The notes under the pieces were generated by a model. That model was given only the letters and a program-made list of their open reading frames with translations, was not told the origin of the DNA and searched no databases. Position numbers and translations under genes: made by a program. A DNA stretch of 35,188 nt, from positions 1 through 35,188 of IMG/VR virus record IMGVR_UViG_3300028589_000025; one strand, given 5' to 3'. This document shows, one piece after another, positions 10,600-19,507 of this stretch. Within the stretch, counting starts at the first letter, position 1, and each line of letters opens with the position of its first letter. Source of the DNA: a virus.

Positions 10600-11751
10600 A
10601 TGAAAATTGCCGTGTACGCAATTGCGAAAGATGAACAAAACCAGATTGAAACTTGGCTGGAAAATGTGAAGGATGCAGACGGCATCTTTGTTCTGGACAC
10701 TGGGAGCAAAGACGCCACAATAGGCCTGCTGGAAGCGGGCGGCGCTGTAGTCAACCAGATGCACACCGGTAAACCTTTCCGGTTCGACCATGCCCGTAAT
10801 GAGGCAATGTCTTATATTCCAAATGACTACGACGTTTGCATTTCTCTCGATTTCGATGAACGTTTGTCCCCCGATTGGCGGGAAGTAATCGAAACACAAT
10901 TCACAGAAGAAATGTCTACGGCCAACTACACGCTGGTTTATTCGCACGACGAACATGGGAACATTTTAATGTCCTATCCGCGTCTGGCGATTCATCGTCG
11001 CAATACCTGTGCATGGCAATATCCAGTACACGAAATATTGATCGCGCAGGAAGCTGGACAGAAGCCTACCCTGCCGATCATGGTCGTGCATTACGGCGAA
11101 CAAAAAACGCCGGGGCACTACATTGATTTGCTGAAACTTGCCTACGAAGAAAACCCCAACGACGCACGGAATCTTTCGTACCTCGCTCGCGAATATCAAG
11201 CGATGGGTAATTTCTCTATGGCGAGTCCACTTTTCCAGCAGCACGTGGAACTTGAGCCATTCGCGCCGTTCCGTGCTGATAGCTGCATGCGCATTGCGCG
11301 TATGTCGCAGGATTTTGAGACAGTCGAGTGGTGGTATCGTCACGCAATTCAACATTGCAACAATATCCGCGAACCGTACTGTCACCTCGCTTCGTATTAT
11401 TTCCAGAACGGGAAATATGAGCATGCCGTGGCGTGTGTGAAAAGCGCAATGGATTACGAAAAACCAGATTACGATATGATTTTCGAGGATCTGTATTATT
11501 CGGGTACATGGTGCGATCACATGTTGATGGCCTGCTACCAACAACTCGGACATTACCGTTTCGCTGCAAAGCATCGCGACATTTTGCTGAGCATGCATTT
11601 GGGCGGTGATATTCCGGTCGATATCGCAACTGACGTTGTGAAATTGAACCAACGAATTCAGGAAGTCTTCTATGATTATTGCTCTAGCGTGGGCGTTCAA
11701 GGACGAATCGCACGTGCAGGAAATGGCAACGTGGCAGAAACGCCTGAGTAA
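10600..11751 (+). CDS. Glycosyltransferase, GT2-like, with TPR-like C-terminal region
   Basis: The product has 383 residues. The N-terminal 170 match a GT-A fold family 2 enzyme. MKIAVYAIAKDE is the first strand and nucleotide-binding turn, VLDTGSKDAT (31-40) is the second, and FRFDHARNEAM (60-70) is a conserved segment of the TPR-linked GT2 group. LDFDERL (83-89) holds the DxD metal site that binds the nucleotide sugar. Residues about 180-345 contain helical pairs with TPR-like spacing (ARNLSYLAREYQAMGNF, then EPYCHLASYYFQNGKYEHAV). The sugar and acceptor cannot be told; virion protein, modified DNA and host surface are all possible. Its last 26 codons overlap the next gene in another frame, and those residues look unlike the rest, which suggests a lost original stop codon. 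Confidence 0.82.
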   Translation: MKIAVYAIAKDEQNQIETWLENVKDADGIFVLDTGSKDATIGLLEAGGAVVNQMHTGKPFRFDHARNEAMSYIPNDYDVCISLDFDERLSPDWREVIETQFTEEMSTANYTLVYSHDEHGNILMSYPRLAIHRRNTCAWQYPVHEILIAQEAGQKPTLPIMVVHYGEQKTPGHYIDLLKLAYEENPNDARNLSYLAREYQAMGNFSMASPLFQQHVELEPFAPFRADSCMRIARMSQDFETVEWWYRHAIQHCNNIREPYCHLASYYFQNGKYEHAVACVKSAMDYEKPDYDMIFEDLYYSGTWCDHMLMACYQQLGHYRFAAKHRDILLSMHLGGDIPVDIATDVVKLNQRIQEVFYDYCSSVGVQGRIARAGNGNVAETPE

Positions 11752-12877
11752 GGGTGAATTTCTGAAACTGTCGAAGAGCGGAAAAGAGCGTTACATTAAA
11801 CTCTATCCGCATTCGAGCCATCGTTTCCTCATGACCGGAAAGGAAGATCCGGACAACATCGAAAAGAAAGCGCCTGCACCAACGGGCGCCAAGCGATTCA
11901 AAGACGAAGACGAAATTCAAAAGCAACGTCAGCGAATCGCAGCCCGCAAAGATATTTCCGATTTCAACAAATCGAATGTCGCGGTGATTAACCCGAGTTC
12001 TTTGCAGGCACTCGACAGCGTAAAAGACGAACACCTTCGCGAAGCTTCTGACAACATTCAGAAGAACAAAAAGGATATCGTGGCCGCTGTGCAACAGCAG
12101 CAAAAGAAACTGCCGAACATGTACGGAAAAGGGCTGGGCGCCGTGCGTGATTTGGTTTCCGGTGAACAACATCCGGACGATATGAGTACCACGCAGAAAC
12201 ACGCAATGCACCGCGTTTTGGGCGGCGTTGCAACCATGGCCCTGTTGGGTGCTGGTGTGTTGGCTGCTGGTATGGCTGCTGCGCCCCTCGGCGTGCTGTT
12301 GGGTGCAACTCTGTTCAACGTGTGGGCCGGTTCCAAACACGGTAAAAACCTGCGCGATGACATTGATGAATTGCGTGCTGCGCGTGAAAAGAAACGCCGT
12401 GCAGAACGTAAAGCAAATGGCGCAGATTCCCAAGCCTTTGCATCCTCGGTATTTACTCCGAACGAATCCACGGAAATGTCTGATGCTGATACCATCGGCC
12501 TGATTCTGGATCATGTGACGGATATGCTGAAATACCATTCGGTGAAAGATTTCCAAGAACAACGCGACGAAGTATTTGCAGGCGCCTCTGCATCTGCGTT
12601 GAAACCGGAATTTGCCGAATTGCGTTACCTGCTGAGCTATGCACATTGCCGCGATTACACACCGCAAGGCGATGGCGTTTCGTTCAGTTGTGACGGCGGT
12701 TATCCGACGCTGGAAAAGCTTTTCAAACGCATGGGTTACATGGTCAGCGCCACCGAAGATGGTGATCAGGTTGCGTACCATTTCGACAATGGTAAAGGCC
12801 GTGCAACGTTGGGCAAATTCGATAACAATTTCTACATTCGTTACGACGGTGATTTCGATTACCGTACCGTTCTTTAG
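11672..12877 (+). CDS. Hypothetical, possibly head-associated protein with hydrophobic central segment
   Basis: The product has 401 residues. The start at 11672 is chosen because AGGAAG lies 7 bases upstream, although it gives an 80-base overlap with the glycosyltransferase gene. The N-terminus, MIIALAWAF, resembles that of the protein at 7040 (MIISLAAS). Residues about 25-150 are charged and helical with a coiled-coil look (SDNIQKNKKDIVAAVQQQQ). About residues 185-222 are strongly hydrophobic and rich in Ala, Gly and Leu (GVATMALLGAGVLAAGMAAA), enough for one or two membrane passes. A charged helix follows, then AFASSVFTPN (an AxAS motif) and a compact C-terminal domain (about 270-401) with the YDGDFDYRTVL end. 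No family recognised. A head-internal or ejected membrane-active protein is possible but unproven. Confidence 0.68.
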   Translation: MIIALAWAFKDESHVQEMATWQKRLSKGEFLKLSKSGKERYIKLYPHSSHRFLMTGKEDPDNIEKKAPAPTGAKRFKDEDEIQKQRQRIAARKDISDFNKSNVAVINPSSLQALDSVKDEHLREASDNIQKNKKDIVAAVQQQQKKLPNMYGKGLGAVRDLVSGEQHPDDMSTTQKHAMHRVLGGVATMALLGAGVLAAGMAAAPLGVLLGATLFNVWAGSKHGKNLRDDIDELRAAREKKRRAERKANGADSQAFASSVFTPNESTEMSDADTIGLILDHVTDMLKYHSVKDFQEQRDEVFAGASASALKPEFAELRYLLSYAHCRDYTPQGDGVSFSCDGGYPTLEKLFKRMGYMVSATEDGDQVAYHFDNGKGRATLGKFDNNFYIRYDGDFDYRTVL

Positions 12878-12887
12878 GAGGCAATAA

Positions 12888-13226
12888 ATGCTCACGTTTT
12901 TGAGTGATCCTGACGAACGTCATTTGCCCATGCATGAGCGCACGAAGGTTTGGGTTTGCGATGGCGATAAACGCATTGCAACCCTTGCCGCTGTGCCCGA
13001 CGAAAGCGCAAACCGTTCGCACCAAACCGCAATGTGGACTGCAAAAATCCACCACAAACAATTCGATCCTTTCGACCACGATCATGAACTGGATGAAGAA
13101 AATCCAAACGTGCATGTGGCGCAAAGTGACGAAGGATTATTGAGTCTGAATAATCCAAATAAACTGGCAATTGCAGACGCCCGCCAGTGGGTGCGCGATC
13201 ATTACACTGGAGGCCAGAAAAAATGA
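12888..13226 (+). CDS. Hypothetical protein (112 residues)
   Basis: A strong AGGAGG lies just before the ATG. The product is acidic and rich in His and Asp (DPFDHDHELDEENPNVHV) with no membrane segment. The C-terminus (LAIADARQWVRDHYTGG) looks like a helix. It ends in an ATGA overlap with the prohead protease gene, so the two are translationally coupled and may act together, for example as protease partner or portal-proximal factor. That is guesswork from position; no family is recognised. Confidence 0.68.
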   Translation: MLTFLSDPDERHLPMHERTKVWVCDGDKRIATLAAVPDESANRSHQTAMWTAKIHHKQFDPFDHDHELDEENPNVHVAQSDEGLLSLNNPNKLAIADARQWVRDHYTGGQKK

Positions 13227-14041
13227 TTGTTGATCAATACGGAAATGATCTTGGGAATATGGCGGTCGGGTTTAATCTCGGCACGCCGATTTCCACGGTG
13301 GAACTCAACGGCGCACGCCTGAACGAATCCGGTCAATTGCCAATCAGCGCCGCTATTTCGGGCACTGGTGAAGCGGAAACACTGGAAGCGAATACGTGGC
13401 TGCAACGTGCTGCGGAATATCACAATCTTTCGCGCAATATTAACGATTACATTCTGGTCACTGTGCCTGCAATGGTTACGCGCATTCCCAATACCAACGG
13501 GGATTCGGTAGACCTGAAACAATTCACCGCGTGGAATGAACCGTGCGCCCGCATGGCTTATAAAACGTGGGAAGGCCGACCGATGTATATCGAACACCAG
13601 CACAAACCTGAATGGGTTCGTGGTCTGATTTTCGGTACGTTTATGCGCCCGACGAAGTTCAAAAACATTCAGAAACTGGTAATGCTAGCGGCACTCGACC
13701 GCACGCGTGATCAGGTTCGTTGTGCGCGTGTTTTAAAGCGCGAATTGAACACGTATTCCATGGGCATGATGTACAGCGCGTATGTCTGTTCCGTTTGCGG
13801 GCATATTGCCGGTAAAGGGATTGGCAGTCCGTGTTCCCATACGCGCCCCGGCAAACCGACGTATCAATTGACTGATGGTCGTTTGGCTTATCGTCGTTGC
13901 ATGAATATCACCGGTTTCGAATTGTCGCTGCTGGAAAACGTCGGTGGTCGCCACGGCCAAGACGGTTACAAACAGGGCTTCGGTGATCCGTCTTACGTTT
14001 CCGCAATCGGGGATATTATTCTCGATCCGAAAGCTGTTTAA
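13223..14041 (+). CDS. Prohead (head maturation) protease
   Basis: The product has 272 residues from the ATG at 13223, which has GGAGG 10 bases upstream. An in-frame ATG at 13187 has no such site. Prohead serine proteases cleave scaffold and capsid propeptides after shell assembly. Visible features fit the family: IPNTNGDS (88-95), then TWEGRPMYIEHQHKP (115-129) with the candidate catalytic His125, then a strand ending in Asp159, and NTYSMGM (176-182) with the candidate nucleophile Ser179. A zinc-knuckle-like CSVCG (189-193) pairs with CSH (204-206), an arrangement seen in many proteases of large phages. The C-terminal 70 residues carry a GFELSLLENVGGR segment. The gene precedes the scaffold-like and capsid genes, as expected. 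Catalytic assignments rest on pattern, not alignment. Confidence 0.8.
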   Translation: MIVDQYGNDLGNMAVGFNLGTPISTVELNGARLNESGQLPISAAISGTGEAETLEANTWLQRAAEYHNLSRNINDYILVTVPAMVTRIPNTNGDSVDLKQFTAWNEPCARMAYKTWEGRPMYIEHQHKPEWVRGLIFGTFMRPTKFKNIQKLVMLAALDRTRDQVRCARVLKRELNTYSMGMMYSAYVCSVCGHIAGKGIGSPCSHTRPGKPTYQLTDGRLAYRRCMNITGFELSLLENVGGRHGQDGYKQGFGDPSYVSAIGDIILDPKAV

Positions 14042-15056: not shown

Positions 15057-16985
15057 ATGTCGAAACGAAATTCGCGCCTGCGCGGCATCGTCGTTATGGC
15101 TGATAACCAAGAGCAAGCAGTGGAACTTTTCAGCGCTGTCGCTTCGGGTACTTATCGCGTTTTGGAAAGTAAAGATGGCGCGTTCGCCATTGCTACCGCC
15201 CAATCCGATTTGCAACTTCTGAACCCGTTGAACGGTGAAGAAATGGTTGCCGTTCCGGAAGACGAAAAGCATGAAATGGTGGCCGTAGCCTCGAACACTG
15301 AAGAGGATATGGACGCGTTCTATCAAGCCTGCTCCAGCGGTTGCGGCGCACACGTTATCACCGACAGTCTCGAACTGTTGGATAAATGCCCGGCTTGCGC
15401 TTCCGACCTCCCCCAAATGGAAGACGCTGACTTGAAAAAGAACAACCAACCAAAAGAATTGCTGCTCGCAGTTGCCACTGATCGCGTTTCTGCTGTTGAA
15501 GCATTCCGCGCTCTGGCAAGTGGCGAAGGCGAAACTTTTGCCGCGAAATGCGATGACGTTATGGTCATTTCCAACCAACCAATCAACTTCGACATTTACA
15601 AGAATATCGAAGCGGAAAAAGTTGAAGGTTATGTACCACAACTCGCCGTGGCATCCGCTGCCACCGAAGACGGCAAAATGAAAGTGCATTATCTGGTTAC
15701 TGCTTCTGACGAAGGCCCGGAAATGCATATCGTCGCCAGCAACCAATCTCCGATTTTCTGCCCCGTGACCAACATGGGTCTGGTTGATCCGGAAGACGAC
15801 ATGAGCGCCGAGCAAAAAGCTGTGGCGTCCGCCGATTTCCTCGCCAAAGCTTCGGATGACGAAGACGAAGAAGAGGAAGAAGACGACGAAGAATTCGAGG
15901 AAGAAGAGGAAGAGGAAGAAGATCCAGACGACGAGGAAGAAGAGGAAGAAGAGGAAGAAGAAGACGATGACGACGATCTTTCTTTGGGCCTCGCTGCTTC
16001 GAAAGGCAAGAAAAAAGGCGGCGTTCGTAAAAAGGTAAAACCTGAAATGGCTACCGCAAGCGCGAAAACCGAAGCTGAGCAATTGGCCGAGCAAAATGCC
16101 GCCGTTGCAAATGCTGAAAACAACGCAGAAAACACTGGTGAACAACCAGCCGCTGCCGCCGCACCTGTTGTGGCCGCTACGCCTGAAGTTGTGGCCCCGG
16201 TTGAAGTAACCGCATCGTTCGTTTCCATCGCGTCTACGGACATGAAGGAAAATACTGTTGATGTTAATTATGTAGGTAACGTCCAAGGCGAACCTACGTG
16301 GATGGCATTCCACAACGGTATTCCTTTCGCAAAAGCAATCGCTTCTGCTTCGGAAAATCCGGCTACTTTTGCTGATCCAGCAATTGGCCGTGCTTTCAAA
16401 GCAATTGCCAGCGAACAGGGCGTGCCTGCTGCGCTGCAACAACTGCGTTTCGAAGAAATCAAACCGGTTCTGCAAATCGAACAGGTTGTTGCGGAACAAA
16501 TCAAATCGCAAGTTACCGAACAGGGTAACGTGCTGGCTGAAGCAACCGCACGCGATAAATCGGAACTCGCAACCCGCTACGAATCCGCTCTGGCGACGGC
16601 TGCACACGGTATTAACACCGGTTATTTCCGTGACCTGAACAACCCGATTGTGACCGCGCTCGCTTCCAGTCTGGAAGCTGTTGGTCTGTCCGGTGCTGAA
16701 GAACTTCTGCAACGTGCGTTCATCGAACATTCGCCTGAATACCATGCGTCGATTTTGGCGAAGGCTGGCGAAATCATGAACTTCGAACAAGTCGTTCAAA
16801 ACCAGATGGCAGTTGCCGTGACTCAAATCGAACCGAAAAACGTGGCTACCGCGTCTTCGCTTTCGGTCGGTCGCCCGGTGCAAACTCCAGCGCAAGTGCA
16901 ACAAGAAAACGTGGTCGCAACCGCTTCGGCACAGCAACCGCAAACTGATTTCAAAACCAAGCTGACCGGCTTGAAACTGTTCTGA
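15057..16985 (+). CDS. Probable acidic scaffold / prohead core protein with repeated AxAS motifs
   Basis: The product has 642 residues and starts at an ATG preceded by GGAGTG. Residues 11-160 hold three related segments. Two are clear repeats: AVELFSAVASG (21-31) and AVEAFRALASG (146-156); a weaker one is DAFYQACSSG. Cysteines 92, 96, 111 and 114 could form a zinc ribbon. Residues 267-307 are almost pure Glu/Asp, then a Lys-rich patch (SKGKKKGGVRKKVKP), then an Ala/Pro-rich linker, then a helical C-terminal half (about 415-600). The tetrapeptide xxAS occurs about 18 times across its length, 13 of them AxAS. Position between protease and major capsid genes, acidity and the serial motif fit a scaffold degraded during head maturation. 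Alternative: a structural protein that retains a cleaved C-terminal domain. No sequence family recognised. Confidence 0.68.
   Translation: MSKRNSRLRGIVVMADNQEQAVELFSAVASGTYRVLESKDGAFAIATAQSDLQLLNPLNGEEMVAVPEDEKHEMVAVASNTEEDMDAFYQACSSGCGAHVITDSLELLDKCPACASDLPQMEDADLKKNNQPKELLLAVATDRVSAVEAFRALASGEGETFAAKCDDVMVISNQPINFDIYKNIEAEKVEGYVPQLAVASAATEDGKMKVHYLVTASDEGPEMHIVASNQSPIFCPVTNMGLVDPEDDMSAEQKAVASADFLAKASDDEDEEEEEDDEEFEEEEEEEEDPDDEEEEEEEEEEDDDDDLSLGLAASKGKKKGGVRKKVKPEMATASAKTEAEQLAEQNAAVANAENNAENTGEQPAAAAAPVVAATPEVVAPVEVTASFVSIASTDMKENTVDVNYVGNVQGEPTWMAFHNGIPFAKAIASASENPATFADPAIGRAFKAIASEQGVPAALQQLRFEEIKPVLQIEQVVAEQIKSQVTEQGNVLAEATARDKSELATRYESALATAAHGINTGYFRDLNNPIVTALASSLEAVGLSGAEELLQRAFIEHSPEYHASILAKAGEIMNFEQVVQNQMAVAVTQIEPKNVATASSLSVGRPVQTPAQVQQENVVATASAQQPQTDFKTKLTGLKLF
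15857..15972 (+). repeat. Purine-rich GAA/GAG low-complexity tract inside scaffold-like gene
   Basis: About 115 bases are almost entirely A and G, made of GAA, GAG and GAC codons for the acidic stretch, broken by a few C and T. A similar shorter tract occurs at 28559-28603 in the tail-tip gene. The reverse strand reads as poly-serine, which is an artefact of the composition. Confidence 0.85.
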
Positions 16986-17002
16986 TAACGGAGAAACTCC
17001 CA

Positions 17003-17743
17003 ATGATCGTTGATAAATACACTCGCGCATTCAACACCGAATTCCGCGACGTTGAACCCGGCCTCGACCTGCGTGAAGACGGCCAAGCGCTCGTTTTCTC
17101 GAAAGTAAATGGCCGTACTTATGTACGTCCTTCGCAAGGCGTTGTTGGCGAAATCTTCGCCGGTATTTCGGTTAACCGTAATACCCCGCCTTCGTTCCTG
17201 CCGAAAATCGTTGCAGACACCATCGTTCCGGAAAGCGGCGTTGTTGACCTCGGTCGCCTGCCACTGAACGGCCAAATGCTGGTTAAAGTCGGCGGCGAAA
17301 CTCTGGAAATTTCCGCTGCTGCGCCTGTTGAAGGCAAAGTGCAAAGCGTCGGCACCAAACTGTATTTCTTCACCGGCACTCCTGCCGTCGATGGCGGCGC
17401 TGCTGCTGTTCCGGGCGATACCGGCAAAGAATTGTTCGTGCAAATGATGTACGAACCGACCGTTTCCGAAGCCAAAACCATTCGCGGTGATGCGCCAATC
17501 GGTGGCCTGTCGAGTTCGGAACTGGGCCGCATTGCCGTCCTGACCCGCGCTGAACAAGTCGCTACCACTTTCTACGACGCTGCCGCCGACTGGTCTACCG
17601 CTCTGCGTCCGAAACTGGGCGTTGACGGCAAGTTCACCACTTCCGGCCCCGGCGAAACCGTGAACACTGTTCTGGTTCTGCAAACCCCAGTACAAGACGC
17701 AGCTTCCTACGGCCCGCTGGTCGTCAAAATCACCAACGCTTAA
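17003..17743 (+). CDS. Probable capsid-associated structural protein (decoration candidate)
   Basis: The product has 246 residues. It lies between the scaffold-like and major capsid genes, with GGAGAA before the ATG. It begins MIVDKYTRAFNTEFRDVEPG. The middle (about 85-155) is rich in short beta strands and Gly/Ala turns (LVKVGGETLEISAAAPVEG, then KLYFFTGTPAVDG), and the end is again beta-rich (TVNTVLVLQTPVQDAASYG). There are no cysteines and no membrane segment. In many phages this slot holds a head decoration or cement protein. I do not recognise the family, so decoration is inferred from position and the all-beta look. It shares the first four residues MIVD with the prohead protease, probably by chance. 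Confidence 0.6.
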   Translation: MIVDKYTRAFNTEFRDVEPGLDLREDGQALVFSKVNGRTYVRPSQGVVGEIFAGISVNRNTPPSFLPKIVADTIVPESGVVDLGRLPLNGQMLVKVGGETLEISAAAPVEGKVQSVGTKLYFFTGTPAVDGGAAAVPGDTGKELFVQMMYEPTVSEAKTIRGDAPIGGLSSSELGRIAVLTRAEQVATTFYDAAADWSTALRPKLGVDGKFTTSGPGETVNTVLVLQTPVQDAASYGPLVVKITNA

Positions 17744-17780
17744 TCGCGAACCGTTCGAAAAATTCTTGGAGAAATAACAT

Positions 17781-18890
17781 ATGTTCACCCCAAACAAAAT
17801 TCAAGGCGCACGGATGGTTCTGCGTGACGGTTCCCCGCTCGACGAACTGCGCTATTCGAAAGGTGGTTCGCTGGCTCTGAGTTCCGCCACTGGCGAATTC
17901 AACGCCTCCGACAGCAAAGACCTCGCCCAACAAATCGGTCGTCTGATGGACGCCGTGCAAAAGGGCATCGTTGTTCCTGAACAACAAATCGCCACCGCTT
18001 CGAGCAAAGAACAACGCGAACAACGTCGCGAAATCATGCGCGAAGCAATGGCTTCCGACGAAAACTGGCAAGCACTGGGCGCGAACATCGCGCAACAGGT
18101 TTACGAGCAATCCGAGCGTGACGGTTTCCTGCGTAAACTTTCGCAAGGTAACACTCTGCGTCAGGGCGAAGTTCAACGCGTTCCAATGCCTCCGCACGAT
18201 TCGATGGCAGTTGTTGCCACCGGCCCTGCTGGCGTCGGCTACCAGAACATTCGCGCTCGTCAATTCCTGCCTGCCGAATTCGAAATCATCGCCAACGTTC
18301 GCGTAAACGCGCTGGACATGGAACAGGTTTCGGGCGATCTGCTGGAACACGCTTACAACGACGCGCTGCAAAGCATGATGGTTCAAGAAGACCGTCTGTG
18401 GAAAATCGCTGCTGACGCAACCGTTGGCATGATGAACCCAATCGAATACATCGCTGGCGAACTGACCACCAAAAACCTCGGTCGTCTGCGCACCGCTGTA
18501 ACCGACTGGAACCTGCCAGCAACTACCGCGATCATTTCCAACGACTACTGGTCGGATATCATCGGTTCGAACGATTTCGCAACCATGCTCGATCCGATCA
18601 CCAAGTACGACTTGGCTCTGAACGGCCAGCTGGGTACGCTGGTTGGTCTGCAACTGCTGACCGATGGTTTCCGCGCACCGAACCAAAAGGTTCTGGAACG
18701 TGGCGAAATCTACGTTGTTGCCAGCCCTGAACACCACGCTGCCTACTCGACTCGCGGCGGTATTCAATCCCGTCCGGTTGACTACGCGCACGAAGGTTCG
18801 ACCGCTAAAGGCTGGATGCTGTCCGAAGCGTTCTCGTTCGTTCTCGCCAACAACCGTTCCGTCGTGAAAGGTAAGCGTCTGGTTCGTTAA
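17781..18890 (+). CDS. Major capsid protein (HK97-fold type)
   Basis: The product has 369 residues with a strong GGAGAAA site. The arrangement fits HK97-fold capsid proteins. An N-terminal region of about 75-90 residues with helices (LAQQIGRLMDAVQKG) precedes the fold. Then come a PMPPHDSMAVVATGPAGVGYQNIRAR-type N-arm/E-loop area (about 144-168), a spine helix region (SGDLLEHAYNDAL, then MMVQEDRLWKIAAD) and a C-terminal P-domain/A-domain block. The block has TTAIISNDYWSDI, LVGLQLLTDGF and GEIYVVASPEHHA. AxAS motifs at 71-74 (ATAS) and 89-92 (AMAS) mark likely ends of a propeptide; cleavage there would leave about 277-295 residues, a usual mature size. The last gene before a strong intergenic RNA fold. 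Confidence 0.85.
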   Translation: MFTPNKIQGARMVLRDGSPLDELRYSKGGSLALSSATGEFNASDSKDLAQQIGRLMDAVQKGIVVPEQQIATASSKEQREQRREIMREAMASDENWQALGANIAQQVYEQSERDGFLRKLSQGNTLRQGEVQRVPMPPHDSMAVVATGPAGVGYQNIRARQFLPAEFEIIANVRVNALDMEQVSGDLLEHAYNDALQSMMVQEDRLWKIAADATVGMMNPIEYIAGELTTKNLGRLRTAVTDWNLPATTAIISNDYWSDIIGSNDFATMLDPITKYDLALNGQLGTLVGLQLLTDGFRAPNQKVLERGEIYVVASPEHHAAYSTRGGIQSRPVDYAHEGSTAKGWMLSEAFSFVLANNRSVVKGKRLVR

Positions 18891-18970: not shown

Positions 18971-19507
18971 ATGGACATTCAGGCTCTTTTTTCACTTGCG
19001 GCATTGTGTTGCAAAAACGGAAGAGACGAATTGGCAGTGCAGGTGCTTAAACAGATTTGCAATTGCGATGAATTTTCTTCGATCCTGAACAGTTCGCTAC
19101 TTCCTGCATTGACCTGCGCCCCGGTACAGAATCAATGCTCGACGGTTCCGCTTGCTGAAGGTGGTAACGAAGGGCAAGTCGATGGACTCGACAGTTTTGT
19201 CGATTACGTTGAAGAAACTTCACCAACCGTTACTAAATTCGGTACTGCTCCAAATTCGGAAAATTCCATCAACCCTTCGTTGCATGGAACTGATAGCGTG
19301 GCGCTTCGGCAGATTATGTCGATGGCGTCCGCTGTCTACGCACAAAAGCAGTATTTGGAAGAGGGCGAAACAATCATCCTCGATCCACAACTATCGGCTT
19401 TTGCTTCGGTTGACCTCGAACCCTACGATGATGAATCGTTGGTAATTCGAGCGCCAGCCCAAGCGATGCAACCGCTAATTCCGGGCCGTATCAGGATACC
19501 GCTGTAA
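18971..19507 (+). CDS. Hypothetical protein (178 residues) after major capsid gene
   Basis: The N-terminal 60 residues look helical, with Leu/Ala/Cys-rich segments (LFSLAALCCKNGRDELAVQV). A long polar, probably disordered middle follows (about 60-110). The C-terminal part contains SMASAV and AFASVDLEPYDDES, which include xxAS motifs like those of the scaffold-like protein, and ends with PLIPGRIRIPL. No family recognised. The ribosome binding site GGAG can pair with the 5' side of the intergenic fold, so its translation may be held below that of the capsid protein. A terminator follows. A minor head or head-completion protein is plausible from position only. Confidence 0.65.
   Translation: MDIQALFSLAALCCKNGRDELAVQVLKQICNCDEFSSILNSSLLPALTCAPVQNQCSTVPLAEGGNEGQVDGLDSFVDYVEETSPTVTKFGTAPNSENSINPSLHGTDSVALRQIMSMASAVYAQKQYLEEGETIILDPQLSAFASVDLEPYDDESLVIRAPAQAMQPLIPGRIRIPL

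Follow-up and report, generated by a model that had tools for sequence, protein, structure and literature searches.

The scaffold-like protein encoded in virus record IMGVR_UViG_3300028589_000025, a 35-kb window taken from the head-tail genes of a jumbo myophage, carries 14 AxAS tetrapeptides that the phage's own prohead protease very probably recognises. This enzyme would cut scaffold and major capsid protein alike at A-x-A|S, with Ala in positions P3 and P1 and Ser in P1'. The window is part of the genome of a Pseudomonas jumbo myophage of the Lu11/HRDY3/PaBG type, and its major capsid protein shares 94% identity with that of HRDY3, 85% with that of Lu11 and 60% with that of PaBG. The plus strand encodes, in this order, the protease, two small open reading frames (ORFs), the scaffold-like protein, a virion protein and the major capsid protein:

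13187..14041, plus strand: head maturation (prohead) protease, 284 amino acids from GTG (phrog_18299, E value 1.1e-96)
15057..16985, plus strand: scaffold-like (prohead core) protein, 642 amino acids, 14 AxAS motifs (phrog_20988, labelled 'ATPase')
17003..17743, plus strand: virion structural protein, homologue of PaBG gp81, 246 amino acids (phrog_16710)
17781..18890, plus strand: major capsid protein, 369 amino acids (phrog_2522 major head protein, E value 3.7e-116)

The enzyme is predicted to be a serine protease with the fold of T4 gp21 and herpesvirus assemblin. The prohead shell would assemble around the scaffold, after which the protease would cut at A-x-A|S, chopping the scaffold into peptides able to exit the head. 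The capsid protein would lose its first 73 residues at ATA|S, allowing head expansion and DNA packaging. In the Erwinia, Dickeya and Yersinia relatives, scaffold and capsid linker alike carry S-x-S in place of this signature. The analysis shows the excess of the motif, its conservation by position, the parallel change from Ala to Ser and the fold of the protease; we infer that the cuts occur, at this bond and in this order, and that the enzyme encoded here makes them.

Excess and placement of AxAS motifs in the scaffold

The AxAS motifs begin at residues 27, 76, 113, 152, 197, 255, 263, 332, 427, 429, 449, 534, 597 and 621 of the scaffold, which contains 20 xxAS motifs in all; the initial annotation had counted 13 and about 18, so that its numbers required correction although the excess it described is real. 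Its statement that the density lies far above what composition would give was borne out by the shuffling control it had proposed. In 20,000 shuffles of the scaffold at the same composition, AxAS occurs 0.97 +/- 0.97 times (maximum 7) and AS 6.4 times (maximum 17), and none of the 20,000 reaches the 14 AxAS or the 20 xxAS motifs observed. In the Lu11/PaBG group, pairs of alanines at spacing 2 are 2.1 times as frequent as expected, whereas the other spacings from 1 to 10 give ratios of 0.8–1.1. The AxA excess is left standing when the acidic tract is masked, and Ser follows AxA 5.1-fold above background. When the ORFs of at least 100 amino acids of the window, Lu11, HRDY3 and PaBG are ranked by AxAS, the scaffold comes first, and no AxA excess was found in the other proteins of the window (75 observed, 71.9 expected). 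All 14 DNA twelve-mers encoding the motifs are different and their Ala and Ser codons are mixed, so the series is not a DNA repeat. The 14 motifs are not all independent: 27 and 152 correspond to each other within what appears to be an internal repeat, and 113 is part of a Cys-rich knuckle. AxE, taken at the motif level only, is below expectation in the same protein (7 versus 12.3), and AxES is absent.

Its gene lies just upstream of the capsid gene and its product is highly acidic, with many predicted protease sites, as expected of a prohead scaffold or core protein. The 'ATPase' label of its PHROG family is questionable and appears unsupported, since an ATPase domain was found neither as a Pfam family nor as a PDB fold matching the AlphaFold2 model. 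The motifs are placed as follows:

15135..15146, plus strand: AVAS 27, predicted helix end
15282..15293, plus strand: AVAS 76, low-confidence linker 76–82, strong cleavage candidate
15393..15404, plus strand: ACAS 113, Cys-rich knuckle; CPACAS here, CPSCSA in enterobacterial relatives
15510..15521, plus strand: ALAS 152, predicted helix end, equivalent of site 27
15645..15656, plus strand: AVAS 197, low-confidence linker 197–205, strong cleavage candidate
15819..15830, plus strand: AVAS 255, directly ahead of the acidic tract
15843..15854, plus strand: AKAS 263, edge of the acidic tract
16050..16061, plus strand: ATAS 332, past the acidic tract in low-confidence segment 267–380, strong cleavage candidate
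16335..16352, plus strand: AIASAS 427–432, ordered segment, a pair of motifs that overlap
16401..16412, plus strand: AIAS 449, predicted helix
16656..16667, plus strand: ALAS 534, predicted helix
16845..16856, plus strand: ATAS 597, low-confidence linker 595–630, strong cleavage candidate
16917..16928, plus strand: ATAS 621, close to the C-terminus in a low-confidence linker; VATA|SA here, QSQS|SA in enterobacterial relatives

The AlphaFold2 model of the scaffold is uncertain overall, with a mean predicted local distance difference test score (pLDDT) of 69 and a predicted template modelling score of 0.30, and its low-confidence segments are 76–82, 124–130, 197–205, 267–380 and 595–630. Judged by this model, the motifs at 76, 197, 332, 597 and 621, together with the edge site at 263, would be the best cleavage candidates in the scaffold, and perhaps about half of the sites lie in plausible linkers. 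The series behaves as the head-protease signature that the initial annotation had taken it for; a claim that every motif is cut is unsupported, because about half of the motifs fall in segments predicted to be folded.

The scaffold homologue of PaBG, gp82, is absent from the 14 listed virion bands of that phage, which include gp80, gp81 and gp83 (PMC7412058). Such absence would be expected if the scaffold is digested and does not stay in the virion, a stained gel being weak evidence on this point. The scaffold gene is intact in the window, in Lu11 and in the metagenome relatives; in HRDY3 (L004:8998-10973) the annotation splits it just past the acidic tract into two overlapping ORFs in different frames, through either a sequencing error or a real frameshift.

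The capsid linker and the AxA and SxS signatures among relatives

The major capsid protein contains both of the motifs that the initial annotation had proposed as ends of a propeptide:

17991..18002, plus strand: ATAS, residues 71–74, preferred maturation site ATA73|S74, in a variable linker; most close relatives keep AxAS or AxAN here
18045..18056, plus strand: AMAS, residues 89–92, secondary candidate; AMAS, ALAS or ALSS confined to the Lu11 group; PaBG has AMVD

The predicted loss from the capsid protein is 19.1% of its mass for a cut at ATA73|S74 and 24.6% for one at AMA91|S92. The capsid protein of PaBG is reported to lose about 20% of its mass (PMC7412058), and its aligned site (APSA, residues 69–72) predicts a loss of about 19%. 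Because of this agreement, and because the second site reads AMVD in PaBG, maturation at 73/74 is favoured over 91/92 on the basis of the alignments. The locally conserved AMAS is the weaker candidate, although the mass estimate from the gel is compatible with the second site too. In the enterobacterial relatives, the position of ATAS 71–74 is occupied by SxS. Structure 6wkk of phage G gp27 was considered as proof of a mature start near residue 74 and rejected, as its chain of 280/282 residues is near full length; the mature form of the phage G capsid protein has 255 residues by N-terminal sequencing (PMC5646251). Lu11 (NC_017972) also contains a second, partial capsid-like reading frame at 77531-78142 on the minus strand, where two short stretches resembling capsid protein residues 240–321 adjoin the head-tail connector.

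We ranked XxY pairs, leaving out those with Asp or Glu, in eight Lu11/PaBG-type scaffolds and eight enterobacterial-type scaffolds, the latter from Erwinia, Dickeya and Yersinia phages and an Alcaligenes record. The most over-represented pair was AxA in all eight of the former and SxS in all eight of the latter. In the enterobacterial type, pairs of serines are 2.4-fold over expectation at spacing 2 and at 0.8–1.3 elsewhere, and the SxS excess also survives masking of the acidic tract. In the capsid linker, most Lu11-type phages have ATAS, AIAS or AVAN, L091 likewise has ATAS, and phages of the enterobacterial type have VHSxS or VSESx. The AxA[SN] or SxS of this linker tracks the scaffold type in most phages, with L028/L029 (VIAS), PaBG (APSA or AVAA) and L104, L105 and L112 (none clear) as exceptions. 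Since the signature is now S-x-S in both substrates of the enterobacterial relatives, substrates and enzyme would have changed together. Conservation in related phages, which the initial annotation had suggested as a check, is in this respect that of a head-protease signature, with the P3 and P1 alanines kept within the clade and SxS in the enterobacterial relatives.

A column-wise comparison yields 2.5 A-to-S double changes between clades per sequence pair at spacing 2 versus 1.3 at spacing 3; it gives only two consensus column pairs and is weak alone because linker sites move. Two of the records compared, Salmonella phage Sen-NF (L008, PV359490) and Alcaligenes phage Afa-NA1 (L007), have nearly the same scaffold counts and nearly the same virion- and capsid-protein stretches despite different hosts. 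In Sen-NF most genes follow one another without an intervening base, a sign that the record may have been assembled or edited.

The prohead protease and related enzymes

The protease candidate that the initial annotation had called adjacent to the scaffold gene has the gp21 fold in its structural model and lies nearby, separated from the scaffold by the two small ORFs. Lu11 and HRDY3 have a gene order identical to that of the window; the annotated protease of PaBG is distant from the head genes, at 181-182 kb. The AlphaFold2 model of the window protease, built from 40 homologues, has a mean pLDDT of 79, with the core above 90. Its best match is T4 gp21 (5jbl; Foldseek E value 5.8e-4, probability 1.00; VIA Z 11.7 over 149 residues at 3.1 Å). 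The next structural matches are herpesvirus proteases with Z of 5–6.4; a Z of 5–6 alone would not be strong, but the matches listed below gp21 are dominated by one family known to share the fold. By this model, the window protease is predicted to have the gp21/assemblin fold (clan SH). Its features are:

13595..13597, plus strand: His137, presumed catalytic, 54 residues before Ser191, invariant in 40 homologues
13757..13759, plus strand: Ser191 (NTYS-M-G), presumed nucleophile, invariant in 40 homologues
13787..13840, plus strand: Cys201, Cys204, Cys216 and His218, predicted metal-binding knuckle, all four invariant in 40 homologues
13262..13273, plus strand: AVGF, residues 26–29, N-terminal [AS]x[AGS]F segment, candidate autocleavage site

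The catalytic roles of His137 and Ser191 are presumed by analogy; their counterparts in gp21 we take to be His85 and Ser140. The ATG at 13223 is a likelier start than the GTG at 13187 because of the alignment with relatives. AVGF is a possible autocleavage site. The N-terminal segment reads AxAF or AxGF in the window clade and SxSF in the enterobacterial relatives and in PaBG, L091, L104, L105 and L112, and these five phages led us to reject it as a strict covariate.

The AxA phages other than L109 have Met after the presumed nucleophile Ser191 (Leu in L104 and L105); at this position the main SxS clade has Lys and the L106-L111 branch Val. On the protease tree two changes are needed per label, the metagenome phage L111 being an SxS phage within the AxA branch and marking a separate second switch. 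This association cannot be counted as many independent events, because it rests on two changes. The chances appear about even that the P3/P1 preference of this protease lineage has changed between Ala and Ser on two or more occasions, each time with the scaffold and capsid sites rewritten in step and with residue 192 (Met192 in the window, Lys in the main SxS clade) involved; one side of the switch would then have an Ala|Ser bond resembling the herpesvirus one. A metagenome branch (L106, L107, L108, L109 and L111) has Ser-Val-Gly-Phe at the nucleophile and scaffolds of mixed AxA and SxS type, and it should be useful for counting specificity switches.

The initial annotation was correct in setting the signature apart from the Glu rule, as cleavage after Glu is reported for the proteases of T4, phiKZ, 201phi2-1 and SPN3US (PMC5694885). 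The window enzyme resembles T4 gp21 as its top fold match, in being encoded among head genes and in having conserved His and Ser at similar spacing. It differs in its extra CxxC...CxH knuckle and in its scaffold, which is poor in AxE and devoid of AxES whereas gp21 cuts after Glu (PMC5694885). SPN3US gp245 cuts A-x-E|S, with Ala at P3 and Ser favoured at P1' (PMC10052503). This enzyme and phiKZ gp175 (MEROPS S80) are, like the window enzyme, jumbo-phage proteases; they share a three-residue P3-x-P1 rule with Ala (or Ser/Gly) at P3, many propeptide sites and, in SPN3US, the P1' Ser preference (PMC5694885, PMC10052503). They belong to a different phage group and have Glu at P1, where Ala or Ser is predicted here. 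At the motif level, the window scaffold is not rich in the [A/S/G/L/I]-x-E sites of Glu-P1 substrates.

The scissile bond of herpesvirus assemblin (MEROPS S21) is Ala|Ser. An assay substrate of the human cytomegalovirus enzyme contains Asn-Ala-Ser (PMC12632753). Likeness to the window enzyme lies in the next-best folds and would extend to this bond, given the predicted AxA|S, and to the cutting of a scaffold inside the procapsid. However, assemblin is fused to its scaffold (PMC8537868), whereas the window protease and scaffold are encoded by separate genes; assemblin cuts few sites and P3 Ala is no herpesvirus rule, whereas the window scaffold has up to 14 motifs. The window enzyme would thus resemble assemblin with respect to Ala|Ser without being a member, because the fused protease-scaffold layout is absent.

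The closest systems are those of PaBG, Lu11, HRDY3 and the Erwinia/Dickeya 'Lupandier' relatives, which encode homologous protease, scaffold, virion and capsid proteins. The AxAS scaffold signature is common to PaBG, Lu11 and HRDY3, with SxS instead in the Erwinia/Dickeya branch. We found no published cleavage motif for any of these phages in the open-access literature (subscription papers not covered). The enzyme family and serial cut sites in head proteins were already known; what would be new is the predicted P1 Ala or Ser. If true, an Ala/Ser P1 class in another jumbo-phage group widens the Glu rule and recalls the herpesvirus Ala|Ser bond. The predicted rewriting from AxA to SxS opens to direct test the long-standing question of how protease specificity shifts when many substrate sites must change, and would, if true, show a viral protease co-evolving with a substrate set of many sites. 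The AxA/SxS signature also provides a means to find processed head proteins in this phage group.

Competing explanations and further candidate substrates

That the motif series is a composition or low-complexity artefact of an Ala/Ser-rich protein is extremely improbable: the scaffold is indeed 15% Ala, but the shuffles, the spacing control, the masking of the acidic tract, the codon diversity and the flat background of neighbouring proteins all contradict it. Alternatively, the motif might have a structural or binding role in the scaffold, as a helix cap, a repeated domain or a shell-binding repeat, and not be read by the protease. This would account for the equivalent positions of 27 and 152 in the internal repeat, for the place of 113 in the Cys knuckle and for the several sites in predicted helices. 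We nevertheless consider it unlikely, since the motif is also present in the capsid linker and in scaffold linkers of unrelated architecture, and since such an element would not be expected to give a signal at spacing 2 only that switches from Ala to Ser jointly in the scaffold and the capsid linker.

The same protease signature could also be cut after its Ser (AxAS|), as the initial annotation had it. Although the full AxAS tetrapeptide is enriched 14-fold and Ser is strongly preferred after AxA, this register is quite unlikely. In the Lu11/PaBG clade Ser is the least conserved of the three fixed positions (P3 Ala 87%, P1 Ala 91%, P1' Ser 69%, compared with 61% for other Ala and 53% for other Ser), and it is replaced mostly by Ala, with Thr also occurring. 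The capsid linkers of SxS phages retain SxS and vary in the residue that follows, which may be S, A, G, N, H or Q. The aligned pairs CPACAS with CPSCSA and ATAQ with SQSG, together with that varied fourth residue, match AxA to SxS and leave the fourth position free. For these reasons, and because SPN3US favours Ser at P1' (PMC10052503), we place the cut one residue earlier, most likely at A-x-A|S.

Several observations weigh against cleavage of the scaffold and capsid protein at A-x-A|S by the prohead protease. Just 5 of the 14 scaffold motifs (76, 197, 332, 597 and 621) are in low-confidence segments, with 263 at an edge; this enrichment is not significant (odds 2.1-fold, Fisher p 0.18), and several motifs lie within predicted helices or the Cys knuckle. 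The scaffolds of L104, L105 and L112 are rich in AxAS or VxAS, yet their capsid linkers have no clear AxA, and the SxSF/AxAF segment of the protease is incompletely coupled to scaffold type. Counted over related sequences, the A-to-S change amounts to two events, not many. As a test of the motif, the PaBG proteins seen in several gel bands were set aside as uninformative or mildly negative: gp81 and gp191 lack AxAS, and the others, gp213 (tail sheath) and gp215 (tail fibre), are tail proteins.

Within the window, a motif search found no AxAS in the 246-residue virion structural protein. Past the capsid gene lies one further candidate:

18971..19507, plus strand: 178-amino-acid protein with AFAS at residue 143

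Its homologues contain two AxAS motifs in Lu11 and three in PaBG, which makes it a possible further substrate. Upstream of the protease, a 401-residue protein (11672-12877) without PHROG or Pfam matches has three AxAS motifs (p 4e-3), and its HRDY3 homologue has two. HRDY3 also encodes a very acidic protein of 230 residues (157764-158456, minus strand; L162:1265-1957) with [VE]ATAS at 13, 132 and 211, whose Lu11 and PaBG homologues retain EEATAS or EEAAAS; by its motifs it is a possible target of the same protease and may serve as a second, small core protein. Finally, a 283-residue HRDY3 protein encoded beside the head-tail connector (190458-191309; L163:4459-5310) has AVAS near residue 40 and ATAS near residue 245, and with similar sites kept in its Lu11 and PaBG homologues it may be another processed head protein.

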